From Drouetiella hepatica Uher 2000/2452 (GTDB lineage Bacteria > Cyanobacteriota > Cyanobacteriia > Elainellales > Elainellaceae), in contig JAHHHD010000045.1 of assembly GCA_019359505.1 (NCBI GenBank), positions 1-39,290 of the forward strand: 39,290 nt of DNA, given 5' to 3'. The notes under the pieces were generated by a model. That model had not been told where the DNA came from and searched no databases. It saw nothing but the letters and a program-made list of their open reading frames with translations. The number at the start of each line of letters is the position of its first letter. Positions within the stretch are counted from its first letter, which is position 1. Of this stretch, positions 6,288 through 16,232 are shown one piece after another. The position numbers were made by a program, and so were the translations under genes.

Positions 6288-7178
6288 CTAGCGATCGGTC
6301 TCAATCTGCAAAACCCAATCTCGGATCAGCTGATTCACCTGATCGGGCACTTCGTCATGGGGACAATGTCCGGCTTGCAGGTAATGCTCCGTCAACTGAG
6401 GGTAAAACTGCCGAAACACAGCGCCACGCGATCGCGCATTCATCCAGGGATCGCCATCTCCCCACAGCATCAGCAGAGGACAGGTCATCTGTTGCAGCAG
6501 CACATCATTTTTTTCGCCGCCTTGAGGAGATTTGAAGACAGACGCAAAAACCGTGGACGCGCCCGGATCGCAGGAGGGGCGATAGATATCCTCCACCAGC
6601 TCATCTGTGACAGCACTCTGATCTAGGTAGACGCGTTCCAACGTCTGGCGAATCATAGATTTTTGCCGCACATACTGAAACAGCAGCCAGCTAGGTAAGG
6701 GGAAAAGAATCAGCGATCGCACTGCTTCAAACATTGCCTTGCGTAGGGGATTTGGCTCTGGCTCTGGCGCTGAGGGGGTAAACGACCCGGCACAGTTGAG
6801 CAAAATTAGACCTGCGGCCGATGAACCCTGCGCCGCTAAGCAAAGCGAGGCGTAGCCGCCTAGAGAGTTTCCGGCAAGTACCGCAGGTCGTCCAATCACT
6901 TGAGCAATAAAATCTTGGAGCTGGTCGCGCCACAGATCGCCGCTGTACTGAACATCTGCTTTAGCCGATCGCCCAAAGCCCAACAAATCGATCGCCCACA
7001 CCTCAAAGTCTTGACTCAATCCGGCAATATTTTTCTTCCAGTGATCGGTCGATGCGCCAAAGCCATGCACCAACAGCAAAGGCGGTCGGTCGGTCTGCCG
7101 TCCTGCTTTAACGTAATAGATAGAGTGACCTTGCCACTGCCAGTAGTCTGCTGTCGTCGGGGCGATCGCCGTTTGCAT
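6288..7178 (-). CDS. Alpha/beta-fold hydrolase
   Basis: The 296-aa product has an alpha/beta hydrolase layout. LLLVHGFGAS forms the oxyanion-hole region, GNSLGG (about residues 106-111) carries the nucleophilic Ser, LLMLWGDGDPW the acidic residue, and AGHCPHDE the catalytic His. A cap insertion rich in Arg and aromatics (RSLILFPLPSWLLFQYVRQKS) lies between. It resembles the cyanobacterial/plastid hydrolases annotated as pheophytinase-like or haloperoxidase-like, but the substrate cannot be read from sequence. No signal peptide is seen. The ATG at 7178 is preferred; a TTG two codons earlier is possible. A 22-bp hairpin lies in the divergent spacer to the right, and vipp1 follows downstream in the same direction, 263 bp away, so the two are probably separate units. 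Confidence 0.85.
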   Translation of the reverse strand: MQTAIAPTTADYWQWQGHSIYYVKAGRQTDRPPLLLVHGFGASTDHWKKNIAGLSQDFEVWAIDLLGFGRSAKADVQYSGDLWRDQLQDFIAQVIGRPAVLAGNSLGGYASLCLAAQGSSAAGLILLNCAGSFTPSAPEPEPNPLRKAMFEAVRSLILFPLPSWLLFQYVRQKSMIRQTLERVYLDQSAVTDELVEDIYRPSCDPGASTVFASVFKSPQGGEKNDVLLQQMTCPLLMLWGDGDPWMNARSRGAVFRQFYPQLTEHYLQAGHCPHDEVPDQVNQLIRDWVLQIETDR

Positions 7179-7281
7179 AGCCAATATATCTCTAGCGTGA
7201 GGTTACAGCGTGAGGGTATTTGTGAAGTAATGTTGAGTATCCTAGCGCAAAGCGATGAGCGACATGGCTTAATCGGGGATG

Positions 7282-7328
7282 AGTTTTGGTGAGAGAAGGG
7301 CGCAGAGCGCCCTTCTCTCACCAAAACT
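7282..7328. repeat. Perfect 22-bp hairpin in a divergent spacer
   Basis: Arms 7282-7303 and 7307-7328 are exact complements with an AGA loop and apex GGGCGC-AGA-GCGCCC. It sits between divergently transcribed genes, 40 bp before the rightward start, where a simple terminator role makes little sense. It may lie in a leader or promoter. Confidence 0.85.
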
Positions 7329-7367
7329 AAAATCAGCAGCGCCCGGTTAGCCGTTTCTCAATTTCTT

Positions 7368-8753
7368 ATGCTCTCTCAATCTTCTAGGAATTTGCAGCGC
7401 CCAACTCGACCCAGCCGATCGAGCCTTTGGTTTGAGCGGATCATGGCGATCGTTGTCCTGCTCAATCTGCTGCTGGTGTTGTTTGACCTCAGCTACATTC
7501 CCTGGCGAGATTTCTACTTGCGGCAGCTGCCTCAATTTACAGTTTGGTATGGAGAAAATCTGAAAGGCATTGAACCCCACCGCTCAACTGAAACCTATCT
7601 GAGAACGGTGCAAAGACTAGAAAATCAGGTGGCTGCTACGGGGCTACAATCTTCCGAGAGCGAGGTGCTGCTAACGAGCCTGCGATCGCTCAGCGCCGAA
7701 ATGGTGGACGAAAATCCGTTTGAGGGATCTGGAAAGTCGGGCACGCTGGAGCGAATTAAGCGCCGGATGCGCGATCAAGTCAATATCGATTCTTCTAAAC
7801 AAGCCTTTGCCGTCTTTTGGAGTCCAGAATATCTGAGGCAGACAGGCTGGAACGAGGCGATCGCCTTCTTTGACAGCCGCATTTCCCCCTTGATAGCCAC
7901 CAACTACTATCGCGGCATTGACGAGACGGGGGAGCCGATCGATCGCTTTTGGCTGATTGACATTGGATTTATCGCTCTGTTCGCCTTAGAGCTTTTGGCA
8001 AGAACCTTCTACCTCAGCCGTCGTAGAAGAATTAGAGGGAGAACAACCTGGCTTGATGCACTGGTGTGGCGCTGGTATGACCTGCTGCTGCTGCTGCCGT
8101 TTTGGCGGTGGCTGCGCATCATTCCTGTGATCACTCGATTTCATCAAGCAAGGCTGATCAACTTAAATTCGCTCAATACCAGCGTGAGTCATGGGTTCGT
8201 CTCTGCCTTTGCCACAGAGATTACCGAAGCCGTGGTGCTGCAAGTCATGGATCAGGTGCAAGAGCTGCTGCGGCAGGGTGCGATCGCGCGTTGGCTGATC
8301 AATCCGCAGGGCGGCAGGAAATACATTGATCTCAACGGCATTAATGAAGGGGAGGCGATCGCCAAGCATTTGACCACCTTGATGGTCGATCAGGTGTTGC
8401 CGCAAGTCAAACCTGACCTGGATGCAATGATGCAGCATATCCTGACCCGCATTCTCAACACCTCGCCCCTCTACGCCGGACTGCAACACTTTCCTGGAGC
8501 CAGTCAAATCTCTAGCCGCATCACCCAACAGATCGTCACTGATGCCACCCAAAATACTCAGCAGGCGCTCAAGTCTGCCTTGGAGGACGAGGTGGGCGCA
8601 AAGCTGTTTGCTCGGCTGATAACTCACTTGGGCACAGCATTCCAAACCGAGATCCAGAAGAACAGGGCGATCGATGAAATTCAGACTTTGGCGATCGCCC
8701 TGCTAGAAGAAGTCAAAATCAATTACGTCAAGCAAAGCGAACAGCTTGAGTAG
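7368..8753 (+). CDS. Membrane protein with voltage-sensor-like segment, 461 aa, function unknown
   Basis: A Leu/Val-rich helix spans about residues 26-42. A soluble stretch of about 150 residues follows, with a coiled-coil-like segment near 74-112. Then come two membrane helices at about 194-215 and 232-248. The second region reads DIGFIALFALELLARTFY, then an Arg cluster, then TWLDALVWRWYDLLLLLPFWRWLRIIPVITRFHQ. This arrangement (acidic residue in a helix, Arg cluster, Trp-Leu-Asp, then a helix ending in spaced Arg) resembles S2 to S4 of voltage-gated channels. No pore helix or selectivity filter follows. The C-terminal 200 residues are soluble and helical. I would call it a conserved integral membrane protein and hold the channel link as inference only. 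The ATG at 7368 gives the full first helix. Confidence 0.7.
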   Translation: MLSQSSRNLQRPTRPSRSSLWFERIMAIVVLLNLLLVLFDLSYIPWRDFYLRQLPQFTVWYGENLKGIEPHRSTETYLRTVQRLENQVAATGLQSSESEVLLTSLRSLSAEMVDENPFEGSGKSGTLERIKRRMRDQVNIDSSKQAFAVFWSPEYLRQTGWNEAIAFFDSRISPLIATNYYRGIDETGEPIDRFWLIDIGFIALFALELLARTFYLSRRRRIRGRTTWLDALVWRWYDLLLLLPFWRWLRIIPVITRFHQARLINLNSLNTSVSHGFVSAFATEITEAVVLQVMDQVQELLRQGAIARWLINPQGGRKYIDLNGINEGEAIAKHLTTLMVDQVLPQVKPDLDAMMQHILTRILNTSPLYAGLQHFPGASQISSRITQQIVTDATQNTQQALKSALEDEVGAKLFARLITHLGTAFQTEIQKNRAIDEIQTLAIALLEEVKINYVKQSEQLE

Positions 8754-10432: not shown

Positions 10433-11443
10433 TTAACCAGGGTTATCTAGGGACGGTACTTCTTTCACAAGCCAGCCCTGAGCTTCTAGGCTGGCAATTT
10501 CTTGTGCCCGCTCATCGGCAAACTGATTGACGGCTTGTAGCTCGATCGGGAACCGCTGTAGCAGTTCGGCAGCAGACACATGGTAGGAAAATGTTATCTT
10601 TCCTAGCGGCAGCAGAGACTTAATGGCGGCTATTCCATTGTGAGTCAGGCTGACCTGATACAAAGGCGGTAGCTGTGAAAAATCTTTGCGTGCCAGCGTT
10701 TTGCCATGAGAATCTAGCAAAAATGCAGACAAATTGGTGAGCTGTGCCGTTTTGTCCTGCTGACTTTCGATCGTCACAATCAAATTTGGCTCCTGAGCAT
10801 GGGTAATGGCGGCATCATAAGATAGTGTTAAATGAATATCATTGCCGCCCTCTTGCTGCGAGACTAAGTTGCCGTCAGCATCATGCTCTCGGCTGTATCC
10901 TTCGCCTTGCCATACCCCCTGCCAAACATAGCGCTGAGGCGCGATCGGATTTGCCAACACATCTGCTAGATCGATCGCGGTGACGTAGGGCGATCGCGTC
11001 CCATCTAACGAGTCAGGCAGAATCAACTCATCAGACTCTTCAGAGCGGGGGCGATCGATCGATTTTTGAGTTGCGATCGTCTGAGTTGCGATCGTCTGAG
11101 TTGCAACATAAGCCGTCACACCTTCTGAAACCTGAACCGCTTTCCAGCCTGCCGGAGCAGCAATTTTGGTAGTGGAAATCTTATTAGCAGACTGGTTAGC
11201 AGCAGGCTGATTAGCAGCAGATCGAATATTCTGAGACAAGACTGGAATCTCGTTAAAAACTTGTTCTAAATGAGATGAATGCTGAGAGGATGACGAGTTA
11301 GACTGCTTCGTCAAATATGAGTCTTTTATTTTAGCCATGTTGTACTGGTCGATCGTGATTAGAGAGGCGATCGCGCTCATAATTCCAACACAAAGTAGCC
11401 AACTCTCTAGAGAAAGCGGTTTAAAGTATTTGACAGGCAGCAT
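10433..11443 (-). CDS. Membrane-anchored protein of unknown function, 336 aa
   Basis: I do not recognise a domain. Residues 15-31 (WLLCVGIMSAIASLITI) form one hydrophobic helix after a short positively charged tail, so the protein is probably anchored with the rest outside the cytoplasm. Residues 40-100 are low-complexity Ser/Gln/Asn. The segment ATQTIATQTIATQ is encoded by a 15-bp direct repeat (11068-11107) built around the HIP1-like core GCGATCGT, showing a tandem duplication inside the gene. The C-terminal half (WQGVWQGEGYSREHDADG onward) has beta-rich character and includes NDIHLTLSYDAAI and NLIVTIESQQDKT. AGGA lies about 10 bases before the ATG. It is convergent with mazF and has a 777-bp spacer upstream. 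Confidence 0.7.
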   Translation of the reverse strand: MLPVKYFKPLSLESWLLCVGIMSAIASLITIDQYNMAKIKDSYLTKQSNSSSSQHSSHLEQVFNEIPVLSQNIRSAANQPAANQSANKISTTKIAAPAGWKAVQVSEGVTAYVATQTIATQTIATQKSIDRPRSEESDELILPDSLDGTRSPYVTAIDLADVLANPIAPQRYVWQGVWQGEGYSREHDADGNLVSQQEGGNDIHLTLSYDAAITHAQEPNLIVTIESQQDKTAQLTNLSAFLLDSHGKTLARKDFSQLPPLYQVSLTHNGIAAIKSLLPLGKITFSYHVSAAELLQRFPIELQAVNQFADERAQEIASLEAQGWLVKEVPSLDNPG

Positions 11444-12220: not shown

Positions 12221-13504
12221 ATGAATATGCATTATTCCGTCGCGGTTGTAGGAGGAGGTCAAGCGGGTCTATCCATGAGCTATTGCTTGAAAGAGCGAGG
12301 TCTAGACCACATTATTTTTGAAAAAAACAAGATTGGATATGCCTGGAGTTCCAAGCGTTGGGACACTTTTTGTCTCGTCACGCCGAACTGGCAATGTCGG
12401 CTACCGGGGTATCACTACTCTGGCGCCGATCCCAATGGCTTTATGCAGAGAGATGAAATTGTTCAATACATCGAAGCCTACGCCGCATCCTTTGACCCGC
12501 CCTTGAAAGAAGGCGTTGAAGTTCTGAAAGTTCGCAAAAACGAGGCTGAGGGAGTTTTTGAAATTGCGACTTCGATTGGCGACTTCACCGCCGATCAGGT
12601 TGTGATTGCAGTCGGGGGCTACCATACTCCGAAGCTTCCAACCTTAGCGGCACGATTTCCTGAAGCGATCGTGCAACTTCACTCTTCCGAATATAAAAAT
12701 CCGCAGTCGCTTCCCGACAAAGCCGTTCTCGTGGTGGGCACAGGACAGTCAGGCTGCCAAATTGCTGAAGATCTACACCTTGCCGGAAAGCAGGTTCATC
12801 TCTGCGTCGGTGGTGCACCGCGATCGCCCCGTCGATATCGCGGCAAAGATGTGGTGGACTGGCTCGATCAAATGGGCTACTATGACCTGTCGATCGATGA
12901 CCATCCTCAAAAGGAGAAGGCACGCAGCAACACCAATCACTACGTTACCGGACGAGGCGGCGGACGCGAGATCGACCTGCGGCAGTTTGCTCTGGAAGGA
13001 ATGCAGCTTTACGGCAAGCTGAAGCAGGTCAGCGGCAGCCAGCTGGAGTTTTCACCAAACCTGAAGCAAAACCTAGATCAGGCGGATGCAGTTGCCGAAA
13101 ACATTAAGAAGAGCATTGACGGCTTCATTGAAAAGAACCAAATTCAGGCACCTACGGAATCTCCTTATCAGCCCGTTTGGCAGCCTGAAACAGAGCCGCT
13201 GACGCTGGATTATGAGCAAGCAAATATTGGAGCCATCATCTGGAGCACAGGCTACCAATCCGACTTTAGCTGGGTCGAGGTGCCCGTGTTTGACGGCAGA
13301 GGCTACCCCGGTCACGATCGCGGGGTTACTGGCGTACGCGGACTTTACTTTCTAGGTCTTCCCTGGCTCTATACTTGGGGTTCAGGGCGATTCTCAGGCG
13401 TGGCGAGAGATGCGACTTACCTAGCCGACACGATCGCCGCCAAAAGAAAAGTTGCCTACACCAACTCCTGGAACGTCGTCAATGAGTTTTTGCTGGGGTC
13501 ATAG
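12221..13504 (+). CDS. MSMEG_0569-family flavin-dependent oxidoreductase
   Basis: An FAD/NAD(P)H flavoprotein of the class B monooxygenase type. The FAD-binding motif VVGGGQAGLS is at about residues 9-18, the NADPH-binding motif VVGTGQSGCQIAED at about 172-185, and the ATG-like motif IWSTGYQSD near the end. WDTFCLVTPNWQCRLPGYHY, GKDVVDWLDQMGYYD and NTNHYVTGRGGGREIDLR match the MSMEG_0569 family, normally found beside Nit1 nitrilase, an N-acetyltransferase (MSMEG_0567/Sll0786) and radical-SAM genes in nitrogen-responsive loci. None of those genes is here, so its substrate is open; N-hydroxylation or a related oxidation is inferred. AAAGG precedes the ATG. The 427-aa length is normal for the family. 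A tandem repeat array upstream may regulate it, and a 23-bp hairpin follows the stop. Confidence 0.85.
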   Translation: MNMHYSVAVVGGGQAGLSMSYCLKERGLDHIIFEKNKIGYAWSSKRWDTFCLVTPNWQCRLPGYHYSGADPNGFMQRDEIVQYIEAYAASFDPPLKEGVEVLKVRKNEAEGVFEIATSIGDFTADQVVIAVGGYHTPKLPTLAARFPEAIVQLHSSEYKNPQSLPDKAVLVVGTGQSGCQIAEDLHLAGKQVHLCVGGAPRSPRRYRGKDVVDWLDQMGYYDLSIDDHPQKEKARSNTNHYVTGRGGGREIDLRQFALEGMQLYGKLKQVSGSQLEFSPNLKQNLDQADAVAENIKKSIDGFIEKNQIQAPTESPYQPVWQPETEPLTLDYEQANIGAIIWSTGYQSDFSWVEVPVFDGRGYPGHDRGVTGVRGLYFLGLPWLYTWGSGRFSGVARDATYLADTIAAKRKVAYTNSWNVVNEFLLGS

Positions 13505-13600: not shown

Positions 13601-15931
13601 TTAATGAGGTGTAGCGTTGGGGGGAGTCGGTGGGCACCAAAACAAATTTTTGCTAGACACCCCCAGCGAGTCCAGAATTCCCCGCATTACTTCGGTGCAG
13701 TACAGCCAATGCCCCAGATCTTCATACATGCGATCGGGGTTGAACTCGAAATCATAGTGCAGCACGTGAGCCAGATCGGAAAACTCATCAGAAGATTGGG
13801 GAGAGAGCAGCAGCAAGCGAAACGGTTTTCCCTGACAGTGTTTTTCTAGCTTGTAGGCGAGATCTATGACGCCTCCCCGATCGGCAATGCCCGTGCGAAC
13901 GAACAGAGCCTGGTCACAGTTTTGTAGGGTGTACCAGAATCGCTCAGCCCGTGCCGAATAGCGAACGCGCATCCGCTCATGAACGGCAGACATATCTTCC
14001 TGCGGGTGATCAGTGTCCTCGACCTCATGGGCAAAAGATAACCCTGTCCATCTGCTGTGATAGACTCTGCCTGCGTCCGGACTGTAGTGCAAGAAGGCGG
14101 GATTCCACATGTCATAAAAACGGCTTTCGATCATGTCGGCAACGTCGGCAATTTGCGTGGTGCGCGTCAGATCAAATGGAAAAGCAGGGCCGTCATACTC
14201 CATCTTGTACAGCATCATCCGCACCGCACAGCGATCGCCCAGGGGAATGATAGCCACACGGCTAATGTCCGATAGGCTGCATTTGTATTGAAACAGCATT
14301 GCGGACTTCGGTGAGACTTTCACCCGACTCTCCAATCCATGACGACCAATCATCAGCGTCCGAAAGGGGGCATCTGGATACAGCGGGTCGGTGTATACTC
14401 CGGCTGGCAAGGCTTTTAAGGCGCTCCGCACCTCTCGCCACATGGGATGGACATTGAACTCCTGGTCTGATTCGTTAACCATCCAGAGATGATGTTCGTC
14501 TGCTCTTAAGATCCCTAGATTTCCGTCATAGAACAGCAAATCTGAGTTGTGGGGTGAAAAGAGATCGAACGCAGAGGTATATTTCAGATCGCTACCGGGA
14601 GGAATCGTGAGAGTCGTTTCGATCGTGCCATCTTCCTGCACGGCAAAGAAGGGAAGCGTCTCTGGCTGAGCCTGTCTTGCGCCCTGCTTTGCGCCCTGCT
14701 CTGCAATGTAGAGTCCCGGACTCAACCGAGCCTGACGTAGCGCTTCTTGAAGTTCCTGCCAGTAGGGAGCAATGCTGTAGCTGTAGGGCGATGCATTCGT
14801 AATCCGTAGCTGCTTCTCCTTGATCCAGGCAGAAATCTGAAAACCTGCCGAATCTTGGTAAATAGCAGTTTCAGGCTGCTGCCAGCGCTGTTTTTCTGCG
14901 GCTAATTCTGTTTTGTCGATCTGGAAAAGGCTCAAGTCGATCGCCTGATACATGAGGCGATGCCCTCGGCTATTGGGGTGAGCCGGATCAAACGATAGTC
15001 CTTCTCGCCATTGCCCCTGTCCATCATCTAGCGCCGTCAACCAATCCAGGACAGGAACCCCCCAAGTTAGCATCCGGCTATGGGTATCTCGTAACAGCCA
15101 ATTGTGTTCTGGAGCGTAGTCGCCATGGGGATAGACGCTGCCCAACACTGGACTAGCTCCTAGCTGCCGTGTCATCTTTACTAACTGCTGTAAGCCACTT
15201 TCAAACCGTCGCTGCACGGCTCGTCGCTCGTGAGGAGGACAGTAGGCAAAGCCTTCGTTGCCCAGCGATAGGGCAATAATGATGATATCAGGCTGTTCGG
15301 GTAGAACGACAGACGGAAACCGCTTGATGGTTCTGCTCACCGTTGCTCCGACCTCAGAGACATTCACGAGTTGGTGCCCATACTTTTCCTGGAGGCTTTG
15401 ACCCAAACGTTCTACCCAACCTCGTAGCAGCCAAGCTTTGTGACCGACTGCAACAGAACTCCCAATCACAACAATTTTTAGACCTTCAGGTTGTAATTCT
15501 GCAAATCTGTCTCCTGCGAACCTGTCGTAGTTTAAGGGCAACCCGCTTACCGCCGCCTCGTCCGCCGCCGCCTCGATATATCCAAACGGGTAAGGCTGCC
15601 CATAACCAAAGGAGCCATCATCTACAACAACAGTCTTGGATTGAAGGTCAGAGTCGATCGGCACCCAGCGGTTTGCCCCCAGCGATTCCCACTGCGCTTC
15701 GCCATCGACAGACAGACGCACATACCTGTATTCCAATCTCTGACCATCAGGAGATGTCAGAGATTGCTGAAAATCGATCGCTGACTCCATCCACCAAAGC
15801 GGGTAAAGATCCGCACTGGTGTAGAGTCGAATAGATTTCGCTAAGTCCCACTGACCTAGTTCAGACGTAGAGCCAACCAGAGCAATGGATTCACCCATCT
15901 GCGTTTCCGCCCTAATCTGGAATCGATACAT
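13601..15931 (-). CDS. Three-domain fusion: CBM20-like, SGNH hydrolase, DUF1796 putative cysteine peptidase
   Basis: Three parts are visible in 776 aa. Residues 1-105 look like a starch-binding CBM20 module (YRFQIRAET, VGSTSELGQWD, YRYV, WESLGANRWV). Residues 150-335 form an SGNH/GDSL-type hydrolase: VVIGSSVAVG (GSS for GDS, near 157-159), GNEG for block III (224-227) and DPAHPN with Asp315 and His318. Residues about 560-770 match DUF1796, a putative papain-like cysteine peptidase (IPLGDRCAVRMMLYK with Cys568, PAFPFDL, SFAHEVED with His635). About 220 residues of repeated Trp/Pro-rich segments link the last two. No signal peptide is seen, so it may act in the cytoplasm, perhaps on glycogen-bound or polysaccharide substrates (inference). 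Neighbours give no help. Confidence 0.75.
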   Translation of the reverse strand: MYRFQIRAETQMGESIALVGSTSELGQWDLAKSIRLYTSADLYPLWWMESAIDFQQSLTSPDGQRLEYRYVRLSVDGEAQWESLGANRWVPIDSDLQSKTVVVDDGSFGYGQPYPFGYIEAAADEAAVSGLPLNYDRFAGDRFAELQPEGLKIVVIGSSVAVGHKAWLLRGWVERLGQSLQEKYGHQLVNVSEVGATVSRTIKRFPSVVLPEQPDIIIIALSLGNEGFAYCPPHERRAVQRRFESGLQQLVKMTRQLGASPVLGSVYPHGDYAPEHNWLLRDTHSRMLTWGVPVLDWLTALDDGQGQWREGLSFDPAHPNSRGHRLMYQAIDLSLFQIDKTELAAEKQRWQQPETAIYQDSAGFQISAWIKEKQLRITNASPYSYSIAPYWQELQEALRQARLSPGLYIAEQGAKQGARQAQPETLPFFAVQEDGTIETTLTIPPGSDLKYTSAFDLFSPHNSDLLFYDGNLGILRADEHHLWMVNESDQEFNVHPMWREVRSALKALPAGVYTDPLYPDAPFRTLMIGRHGLESRVKVSPKSAMLFQYKCSLSDISRVAIIPLGDRCAVRMMLYKMEYDGPAFPFDLTRTTQIADVADMIESRFYDMWNPAFLHYSPDAGRVYHSRWTGLSFAHEVEDTDHPQEDMSAVHERMRVRYSARAERFWYTLQNCDQALFVRTGIADRGGVIDLAYKLEKHCQGKPFRLLLLSPQSSDEFSDLAHVLHYDFEFNPDRMYEDLGHWLYCTEVMRGILDSLGVSSKNLFWCPPTPPNATPH

Positions 15932-16232
15932 AGGTTTTTCCCTAGCTTAGAAGGACGGGCGCTATTAATTTCAAAAATTCATCCCCAGACTAAGCTGTGC
16001 CGAAAAACGATAGAGCTGTTGCCAGTTTGCTCTGGAAATTCATGGTGGGGCGCTTCGCGCCCCACCATGAATTTTCCGTTAACCGCGTTGGCGGTTGCCA
16101 TACCGGATGAGCTTGACCGTATCACGTAAAGCTCTGGAGATCTGTCTTGGAGATAACCTTGCAATCGGCAGGTTGTGCGATCGTTCCAAAATCGCCCTAT
16201 TATATCGATGTAGTTTGCATGGAGAGAGCCTG
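15932..16232. other. Divergent spacer between the fusion gene and ureC
   Basis: This 301-bp spacer holds the composite repeat at 16036-16104. To its right is a plausible ureC promoter region containing TATTAT at about 16198-16203. I looked for an NtcA-type GTA-N8-TAC site, which would fit nitrogen control of urease, and did not find one. Confidence 0.5.
16036..16104 (-). repeat. Composite palindromic element, second copy
   Basis: An 18-bp perfect hairpin (16036-16053 and 16057-16074, loop TTC, so GAA on the other strand) is followed at 16080-16104 by the reverse complement of the 25-bp module found at 5126-5150, with one base changed (GCGTTGGC for GCCTTGGC). Both copies have the same order of module and GGTGGGG-type hairpin, which supports one element in opposite orientations. 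Confidence 0.8.

Follow-up and report, generated by a model that had tools for sequence, protein, structure and literature searches.

The 39,290-nt stretch of Drouetiella hepatica DNA analysed here (the window) encodes a fusion protein in which a CBM20 starch/glycogen-binding domain, an SGNH esterase domain and a DUF1796 domain are joined, and which is tied by neighbourhood and by occurrence to an acyl-CoA ligase, a connection that is new here. Because the fusion tends to travel with the gene of this small-acid-activating enzyme, the architecture and the co-occurrence suggest that the protein acylates or deacylates glycogen, the main carbon store of cyanobacteria. The reading preferred here, held tentatively and somewhat short of an even chance, is of a cytoplasmic acyl-ester enzyme docked on an alpha-glucan, probably glycogen, in which DUF1796 would carry out acyl transfer with a donor supplied in many lineages by the ligase. 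The features of the gene are as follows.

13601..15931, minus strand: whole gene, 776 aa, from ATG start to stop codon; relatives are full-length at 54-71% identity
15596..15931, minus strand: CBM20 starch/glycogen-binding domain, residues 1-112 (Pfam, 1ac0 match, Foldseek, Trp conservation)
14912..15487, minus strand: SGNH (GDSL-type) esterase domain, residues 149-340, with Ser159, Gly195, Asn225, Asp315 and His318 (Pfam, VIA-align, conservation)
15455..15457, minus strand: codon of Ser159, predicted SGNH nucleophile (81/81)
14564..14878, minus strand: first of the two middle repeats, residues 352-456, predicted to form a beta-sandwich resembling GH13 domain C; not assigned to a Pfam family
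14267..14563, minus strand: middle repeat 2, residues 457-555 (hhalign of repeat 1 against repeat 2)
13604..14266, minus strand: DUF1796 domain and conserved tail NLFWCP, residues 556-776, with Cys568, Asp587, His635 and Arg679 (Pfam, conserved residues)
14228..14230, minus strand: codon of Cys568, predicted DUF1796 nucleophile (81/81; aligns with the Cys of three Priestia DUF1796 proteins)
14027..14029, minus strand: codon of His635, predicted to pair with Cys568 in catalysis (81/81; invariant also against Priestia)

The reading frame is intact, with no internal stop, and in a Pfam scan of the whole protein CBM_20, Lipase_GDSL_2 and DUF1796 each scored over cut-off, bearing out an earlier note on this DNA that had read a carbohydrate-binding module, an SGNH unit and DUF1796 in one chain. 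The GSS, GNEG and DxxH (DPAH) blocks, Cys568 and His635 were located where that note had placed them. The best 80 of 120 relatives were all cyanobacterial and shared the identical domain order within one frame; the fusion is therefore real and not an assembly accident. It is conserved and single-copy. A strand was predicted at residues 2-7 and the CBM_20 match begins at residue 3, leaving no room for a signal peptide, whose absence had been claimed, and the protein is likely cytoplasmic. The interpretation in that note is partly supported: it stands for the order of the domains, for the folds of CBM20 and SGNH, for the likely location and for a glycogen-like glucan target, but the note had overlooked two middle domains and the ligase partner. 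No description of a CBM20-SGNH-DUF1796 fusion, no paper on DUF1796 and none combining CBM20 with SGNH was found in the papers searched.

Residue counts were taken over 81 sequences (the best 80 of 120 relatives plus the window protein), 80 of them distinct, as L076 and L078 are identical. Alignment A1 comprised 12 sequences including the window protein; it leaves out L007 and L013, where a stop interrupts the matched segment, and L016-L018, which are split or partial. Alignment A2 comprised 48 of the 81 sequences and A3-A5 comprised 25. The genome sets overlap, G029/L100, G013/L102 and G032/L093 being the same genomes.

The malonyl-CoA-synthetase-like ligase was encoded within 8 kb of the fusion at 40 of 50 Nostocales loci and 16 of 30 others. 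Where both flanks reached 8 kb it was present at 27/30 Nostocales and 7/11 other loci, against 10/30 and 3/11 for the next-best neighbour family. Among more widely sampled loci it adjoined the fusion in only 1 of 21. The class sample comprised 242 genomes, 53 of them with DUF1796; the ligase (E<=1e-80) was found in 34, all among those 53. Nineteen of the 53, the window's own genome included, had no ligase at that threshold, six candidate places per genome being scored, so that these absences are softer than those of the order sample, in which all were scored. The best ligase relative in the window genome was 32% identical, with no close ligase, and the ligase is thus not obligatory. Nineteen of the 34 ligase genomes belong to one genus, with ligases 38-41% identical that may not be orthologous; among the 15 closest cases, 3 have both genes on one contig at a great distance and 10 have them on separate contigs. 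The order sample, 27 genomes of a single family that overlaps the class sample, had the ligase in 6 of 9 fusion-bearing genomes and in none of the 18 without the fusion (Fisher p 2.8e-4). Further partners were sought around the ligase in 16 genomes; outside close relatives, nothing recurs except two broad multi-copy clusters (4 and 3 loci).

It is unlikely, in our estimate, that this link reflects inherited gene order and shared ancestry and is functionally meaningless. A single inherited arrangement would predict what was seen in Nostocales, where all 40 linked loci were convergent; the upstream and divergent arrangements come from a single locus each, the class-wide test ignores phylogeny, and both the weight of one genus and the one-family make-up of the order sample also speak for common descent. 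However, four distinct arrangements were recorded (convergent at 44 loci; downstream on the same strand at 11 and at L163; upstream on the same strand at one; divergent at L219), other neighbours were retained far less, and the closest cases co-occur in spite of their separation. The contrast within one family likewise argues against ancestry as the explanation.

The nearest solved relatives of the ligase were the MatB malonyl-CoA synthetases (4fuq, 3nyq). Against the NCBIfam malonyl-CoA synthase model PRK07514 it scored 387 bits, under the cut-off of 558; a model for acyl-CoA synthetases in general did nearly as well at 378, so that malonate is only a candidate for the acid it activates.

The immediate neighbours of the fusion in the window (urease alpha, divergently oriented, an MSMEG_0569-type flavoenzyme, PurM and others) were rejected as partners, since among 21 loci the only neighbour shared by at least three was an alpha/beta-hydrolase, present in the window and at L166 and L171. 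At one named locus, L069, two oxidoreductase genes of this neighbourhood recur. An anti-phage defence role was rejected, there being no PADLOC match, as was mobile DNA: the plasmid collection yielded no more than two pieces of SGNH and, in Priestia, three DUF1796 matches, and no phage match was obtained for the DUF1796 part.

At the N-terminus Pfam CBM_20 matched residues 3-100 (64.1 bits, cut-off 23.3, E 1e-17). The CBM20 fold assigned earlier was confirmed in sequence by 1ac0, the starch-binding domain of glucoamylase (E 4e-11), and in Foldseek by matches to the solved CBM20 domain 2z0b (prob 1.00) and to glucoamylases; by hhalign the domain is close to the CBM20 of cyanobacterial amylases (E 1e-16). 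Trp28 and Trp81 were kept in 81/81 sequences and Lys69 in 78/81, the window protein having Arg there. Aligned with 1ac0, these three correspond to binding site 1 of the Aspergillus niger CBM20. Site-1 glucan-binding residues are thus present and glucan binding is predicted; the site-2 tyrosines of the glucoamylase domain were not retained in the 81 sequences compared with 1ac0.

Pfam Lipase_GDSL_2 matched residues 155-326 (65.5 bits, cut-off 32.9, E 1.2e-17). The full Ser, Gly, Asn and Asp-x-x-His set of blocks I, II, III and V was present, with Ser159, Gly195, Asn225 and His318 in 81/81 sequences and Asp315 in 80/81. The predicted model superposed on the carbohydrate esterase PbeAcXE with a VIA-align Z of 21.9 (rmsd 2.3 A, 192 residues); the top fold matches were carbohydrate esterases and one polymer esterase, with TesA and sialate O-acetylesterase also among the matches. 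Among known folds, that modelled for the SGNH part comes closest to the carbohydrate esterases. The idea that the SGNH and DUF1796 parts are duplicated halves was rejected, as hhalign found no relation.

Residues 345-560 form an internal duplication (hhalign repeat 1 vs 2, E 2e-12) to which no Pfam family was assigned in scans of the window protein and 25 family members; hits to POLO_box (3/25 members, best E 0.039) and TyeA (4/25 members, best E 0.22) were judged chance. With the predicted model, repeat 1 matched residues 439-524 of the CGTase 3wms at a VIA-align Z of 9.1 (rmsd 2.5 A, 82 residues), where unmatched models commonly reach 7-8. All 50 VIA-align matches listed were GH13-type enzymes, many redundant, and six of them covered model residues 56-203 with GH13 C-terminal parts (Z 7.4-8.4). 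The best Foldseek match in the PDB had an E of 3e-3, none being <=0.001, and unrelated low-probability matches were intermixed. Hhalign gave a probability below 1% when the repeats were compared in sequence with 22 cyanobacterial amylase sequences over their domain-C region. The repeats, as modelled, may resemble domain C of GH13 alpha-amylases, and the tandem constitutes a newly defined domain.

Pfam DUF1796 (PF08795) matched residues 561-683 with 27 bits in the whole protein and 31 bits for the domain alone (cut-off 23). It was matched in all 25 family members scanned, with matches in relatives extending to profile position 164 of 166. Cys568, Asp587 and His635 were present in 81/81 sequences, in the order Cys, Asp, His; in alignment A6, made with the Priestia proteins, the Cys is not printed as invariant because the L048 row is too short to include it. 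This conservation argues for catalysis by DUF1796, and it bears on a rather improbable alternative, a purely hydrolytic, ligase-independent esterase whose SGNH domain strips chance acyl groups from storage glucan or maltodextrins and whose DUF1796 part serves as another domain that binds glycans or acts on glycosyl groups. A complete SGNH machinery with a carbohydrate-esterase-like fold would suit such an enzyme, as would the 19 of 53 genomes that manage without the ligase; against it also stands the finding that no ligase occurred without DUF1796 in the 242 genomes.

By sequence, no solved structure matched the DUF1796 part, and another search returned only dehydrogenases (E 1.1). In fold searches of the C-terminal fragment against the PDB, the matches listed fell on the middle repeats and none could be assigned to DUF1796; that the papain-like family is missing among them is no evidence against a papain-like fold. 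The C-terminal model did resemble viral proteins that carry the annotation (putative) papain-like cysteine peptidase, where structures and names alike are predicted. Past His635 the predicted secondary structure runs helix-strand-helix-strand-strand-helix; the papain core, as described in PMC10318531, is a helix plus a sheet and simpler. On Priestia plasmids, DUF1796 genes lie near wecB, polysaccharide and GT4 genes, and in a genome from another class of the phylum (G278) a GT8 glycosyltransferase gene follows a stand-alone DUF1796 gene by 21 bp. Since stand-alone DUF1796 genes sit among glycan-biosynthesis genes, DUF1796 seems more likely to act on a glycan than to cleave a linked protein, and a family named only by prediction gains a glycan context. 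That DUF1796 is instead a cysteine peptidase cutting glycogen-bound proteins, with SGNH acting on a lipid or protein thioester and CBM20 serving only granule targeting, fits the Pfam and plasmid label of putative cysteine peptidase, the preserved residue order, the viral resemblance and the TesA-type thioesterases among the SGNH matches, but is distinctly unlikely given the glycan gene contexts, the ligase link, the elements beyond a papain core, and the main text of PMC10318531, which names neither PF08795 nor DUF1796.

In the preferred reading of a glucan-docked acyl-ester enzyme, the N-terminal CBM20 would dock the protein on an alpha-1,4-glucan, most likely glycogen, and the SGNH domain would remove, or transfer, acyl groups of that glucan. 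The two middle modules may be spacers or additional glucan contacts. DUF1796 would be a Cys/Asp/His enzyme acting on glycans rather than proteins, its likeliest job being acyl transfer from a CoA thioester via Cys568, and in many lineages the donor would come from the ligase, whose gene lies close by or at another place in the genome. The analysis shows the domains, their conservation, the internal duplication, and the neighbourhood and co-occurrence of the ligase; from these we infer the location in the cytoplasm, glycogen as the substrate, the acyl group, the direction of reaction and the role of the Cys domain, acyl transfer by DUF1796 included. A bolder proposal, that cyanobacterial glycogen bears reversible acyl (perhaps malonyl) esters which this one protein, docked on the granule, writes with the Cys domain from CoA thioesters of a dedicated ligase and erases with SGNH, is a long shot; among the papers searched, none described glycogen that is acylated, acetylated, malonylated or succinylated. 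A protein predicted to dock on glucan, with two domains that look catalytic and a ligase that co-occurs, makes acyl modification of glycogen directly testable.

Several known systems share parts of this arrangement. The CBM20 has the sequence, fold and site-1 tryptophans of the A. niger glucoamylase domain (1ac0) and of the cyanobacterial amylase-type L020, in which Alpha-amylase and CBM_20 share one frame, whereas here it is N-terminal in a protein without an Alpha-amylase domain. PbeAcXE, Axe2, sialate O-acetylesterase and TesA show the same fold and Ser-Gly-Asn-His/Asp residues as the SGNH part, which differs in having GSS for GDS, no signal peptide and a junction to CBM20 and DUF1796. The middle repeats, predicted to be beta-sandwiches, may be like GH13 domain C (CGTase, alpha-amylase) in fold, but occur as two tandem copies without the catalytic barrel and without detected sequence similarity. 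Priestia megaterium plasmid DUF1796 proteins carry the same LGxxC...PxD...H pattern and the G278 protein the same Pfam match; these stand alone at ~200-260 aa, whereas the domain here closes a 776-aa fusion whose tail, NLFWCP, is conserved. The giant-virus proteins with the (putative) papain-like annotation (Catovirus A0A1V0SAM1 and others) are alike in predicted fold, with E 1e-6 and, over 199 columns, a TM of 0.63 normalised by target length, and stand alone at 166-327 aa. MatB (4fuq, 3nyq) has the ERYGMTE stretch in common with the ligase, which lies under the curated NCBIfam malonyl-CoA synthase cut-off. WcbI offers a works-like precedent only: PMC4104973 describes a CoA-binding polysaccharide-biosynthesis protein of a capsule pathway, with a Cys where a beta-strand ends, for which assays did not show acetyltransferase activity. 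In logic, the writing and erasing of esters envisaged in the bolder proposal would be a bacterial counterpart to plant starch phosphorylation.

The fusion gene lies on contig C79 of a 6.4 Mb genome, with the following features in the window.
13601–15931, minus strand: fusion gene, encoding 776 aa in an uninterrupted frame with an ATG start
12221–13504, plus strand: MSMEG_0569-family flavin-dependent oxidoreductase, in convergent orientation to the fusion gene (TIGR04046, 679 bits against a cut-off of 498)
10433–11443, minus strand: 336-aa frame without Pfam or NCBIfam match
7368–8753, plus strand: 461-aa frame without NCBIfam match at E 1e-5
The perfect hairpin at 16036–16074 (18-bp stem, 3-nt loop), which separates the fusion gene from that for urease alpha, is a dispersed palindromic repeat: its 21-bp core occurs 124 times in the genome of the window and 0 times in the reversed control.

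Pfam placed CBM_20 at residues 3–100, Lipase_GDSL_2 at 155–326 and DUF1796 at 561–683, each exceeding its cut-off within the one 776-aa frame, which bears out the single three-domain chain proposed in the earlier note. The fusion is a conserved family and no accident. Some match at E 0.001 was obtained in 34 of 60 genomes (the window's own counted), the weak ones being CBM20 or SGNH pieces from other proteins; at E 1e-100 or better, the whole fusion was found in 13 genomes beyond the window's, 2 of them with a stop inside the matched range, and it was matched as separate pieces in 3 more, one of which (G026) keeps a single 843-aa frame. Relatives were collected from one genome per species using two peptide patterns taken from the DUF1796 part, and the best 80 of 120, together with the window, make up the 81 sequences of the residue counts below. 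Judged by title, all 80 were cyanobacterial, and all held the entire domain order in one frame; the C-terminus was cut in one (L106). In the class-wide sample DUF1796 was present in 53/242 genomes, with one match per genome, and the frame holding it measured 739–891 aa in 50 of these, the remaining 3 being split or partial. The C-terminal domain was matched at E 1e-6 in 16/194 genomes of a phylum-wide sample, and the middle repeats at E 0.01 in 25/116 genomes, always at the fusion. In one genome met in the phylum-wide sample (G369:C3:6269010–6269308), just short, spaced-out DUF1796 remnants are present, apparently a decayed copy.

The closest solved relatives of the CBM20 domain were the starch-binding domains of glucoamylase and CGTase, and a CBM20 close to that of the fusion (hhalign E 1e-16) is carried by L020, a cyanobacterial protein that also has an Alpha-amylase domain. 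Trp28, Trp46, Trp81 and Arg88 were present in 81/81 sequences and Lys69 in 78/81, being Arg in the window. In an alignment with the Aspergillus niger glucoamylase domain (1ac0), Trp28, Lys69 and Trp81 matched the positions that we take to be site 1; the site-2 tyrosines were not kept. In the SGNH domain, Ser159, Gly195, Asn225 and His318 were found in 81/81 sequences and Asp315 in 80/81. The whole chain was modelled with AlphaFold2 (pTM 0.79, mean pLDDT 86), and the top VIA-align match to the SGNH model was the carbohydrate esterase PbeAcXE (Z 21.9, 2.3 Å, 192 residues), followed by a polyvinyl-alcohol esterase (20.4), TesA (18.9) and a sialate O-acetylesterase (16.7).

Residues 345–560, which no Pfam family fits, contain an internal duplication (345–458 versus 459–560; hhalign E 2e-12). 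A separate model of residues 352–776 (pLDDT 87, pTM 0.82) aligned with the domain C found in CGTases and amylases at Z 9.1 (2.5 Å over 82 residues), and all 50 matches listed for it were of GH13 type, many being redundant. Foldseek with this model gave E 3e-3 at best, none reaching 0.001, with unrelated low-probability rows interspersed, and sequence profiles detected no similarity of the repeats to domain C. Judged from the model, the middle repeats probably resemble GH13 domain C.

In the DUF1796 domain, Cys568, Asp587, His635 and Arg679 were conserved in 81/81 sequences; against three Priestia proteins, Asp, His and Arg were invariant and Cys aligned. Sequence searches for a solved structure of DUF1796 found none, one returning only dehydrogenases (E 1.1). 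At E ≤0.001, the viral structure library yielded 4 matches, each of them from a giant virus and annotated as (putative) papain-like cysteine peptidases, which were assigned to the DUF1796 part because of their length and coverage. In the AlphaFold2 model, strand 559–563 runs into Cys568 at the start of helix 567–576, and His635 is followed by helix 648–671, strand 674–680, helix 685–699, strands 704–709 and 723–726, and helix 739–755; these predicted elements would exceed the papain core as described in the part of PMC10318531 consulted. Beyond the last predicted helix, within residues 762–776 (window 13604–13648), the C-terminal NLFWCP was identical in 80/80 sequences reaching it and the next Pro was kept in 79; it is possibly a docking tail or active-site lid.

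Elsewhere, 2 or 3 DUF1796 copies were found on plasmids of Priestia megaterium, which are related and not independent, amid wecB, a polysaccharide biosynthesis protein, another epimerase and a GT4 glycosyltransferase, with an S8 peptidase gene also nearby. In a genome of the phylum-wide sample that falls outside the class (G278), DUF1796 stands by itself in a 260-aa frame, followed after 21 bp on the same strand by a GT8 glycosyltransferase gene and then by a pyridine-nucleotide oxidoreductase. If the cyanobacterial fusion is counted too, the separate glycan contexts number three, which is few.

When the genes flanking the fusion were clustered, an AMP-forming acyl-CoA ligase stood out as the one strong neighbour. 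Among the best 80 of 120 relatives, it lay ≤8 kb from the fusion at 40/50 Nostocales loci (orders taken from record titles, Plectonema counted among them) and 16/30 others; where both flanks reached 8 kb, the counts were 27/30 and 7/11, the next gene family reaching 10/30 and 3/11. Its orientation varied: the two genes converge at all 40 of the linked Nostocales loci and at 4 from elsewhere, whereas the ligase follows the fusion on the same strand at 11 loci and lies upstream at 1. Among 20 further loci and the window, the ligase adjoined the fusion only at L163, directly after it on the same strand (longest frames overlapping by 52 bp, matched regions approximately 25 bp apart). At L219 the two genes diverge, their frames lying 220 bp apart; the fusion copy there (6561–8731, minus strand) consists of two overlapping frames beside the intact ligase, through a true frameshift or a sequencing error. 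Class-wide, with 6 candidates per genome scored, the ligase was found at E≤1e-80 in 34/242 genomes, all 34 within the 53 having DUF1796 (p 2e-11; phylogeny is ignored, so this value is not to be relied on), and it was missing at that threshold from the window's genome and 18 other DUF1796-bearing genomes. Close ligases (>500 bits, 57–78% identity) accounted for 15 of the 34 genomes, the remaining 19 representing one genus (38–41%); of the 15, 2 have ligase and fusion side by side, 3 have them far apart on the same contig, and 10 have them on separate contigs. In an order sample of 27 genomes from a single family, overlapping the class sample and with every candidate scored, the ligase occurred in 6/9 fusion-bearing versus 0/18 other genomes (Fisher p 2.8e-4). 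Its nearest solved structures were MatB malonyl-CoA synthetases; it scored 387 against the curated malonyl-CoA synthase model, under the cut-off of 558, and nearly as much (378) against a general acyl-CoA synthetase model.

Ester chemistry on glycogen fits the fusion and ligase best, because glucan docking and a carbohydrate-esterase-like domain are combined with a Cys/His domain known from glycan clusters and a ligase making CoA thioesters. Which domain would be writer and which eraser, and which acyl group would be carried, we can only infer. Peptidase action of DUF1796, the family's label and that of its viral matches, is less likely; of the cysteine peptidase proposed earlier, the domain itself and the conserved Cys568 and His635 (81/81) stand. 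The separate families are already known, Pfam naming the single domains and NCBI annotation using the DUF1796 name; the literature searched yielded neither their combination in one protein, nor the tandem middle domain, nor the link to the ligase. For ester chemistry on glycogen, two precedents for a possible mode of action, offered as such and not as relatives, come from the parts of the sources consulted: DUF1839, a papain-like DUF with proposed acyl-CoA-dependent glycan processing (PMC10318531), and WcbI, a Cys-bearing CoA binder of a polysaccharide pathway (PMC4104973).
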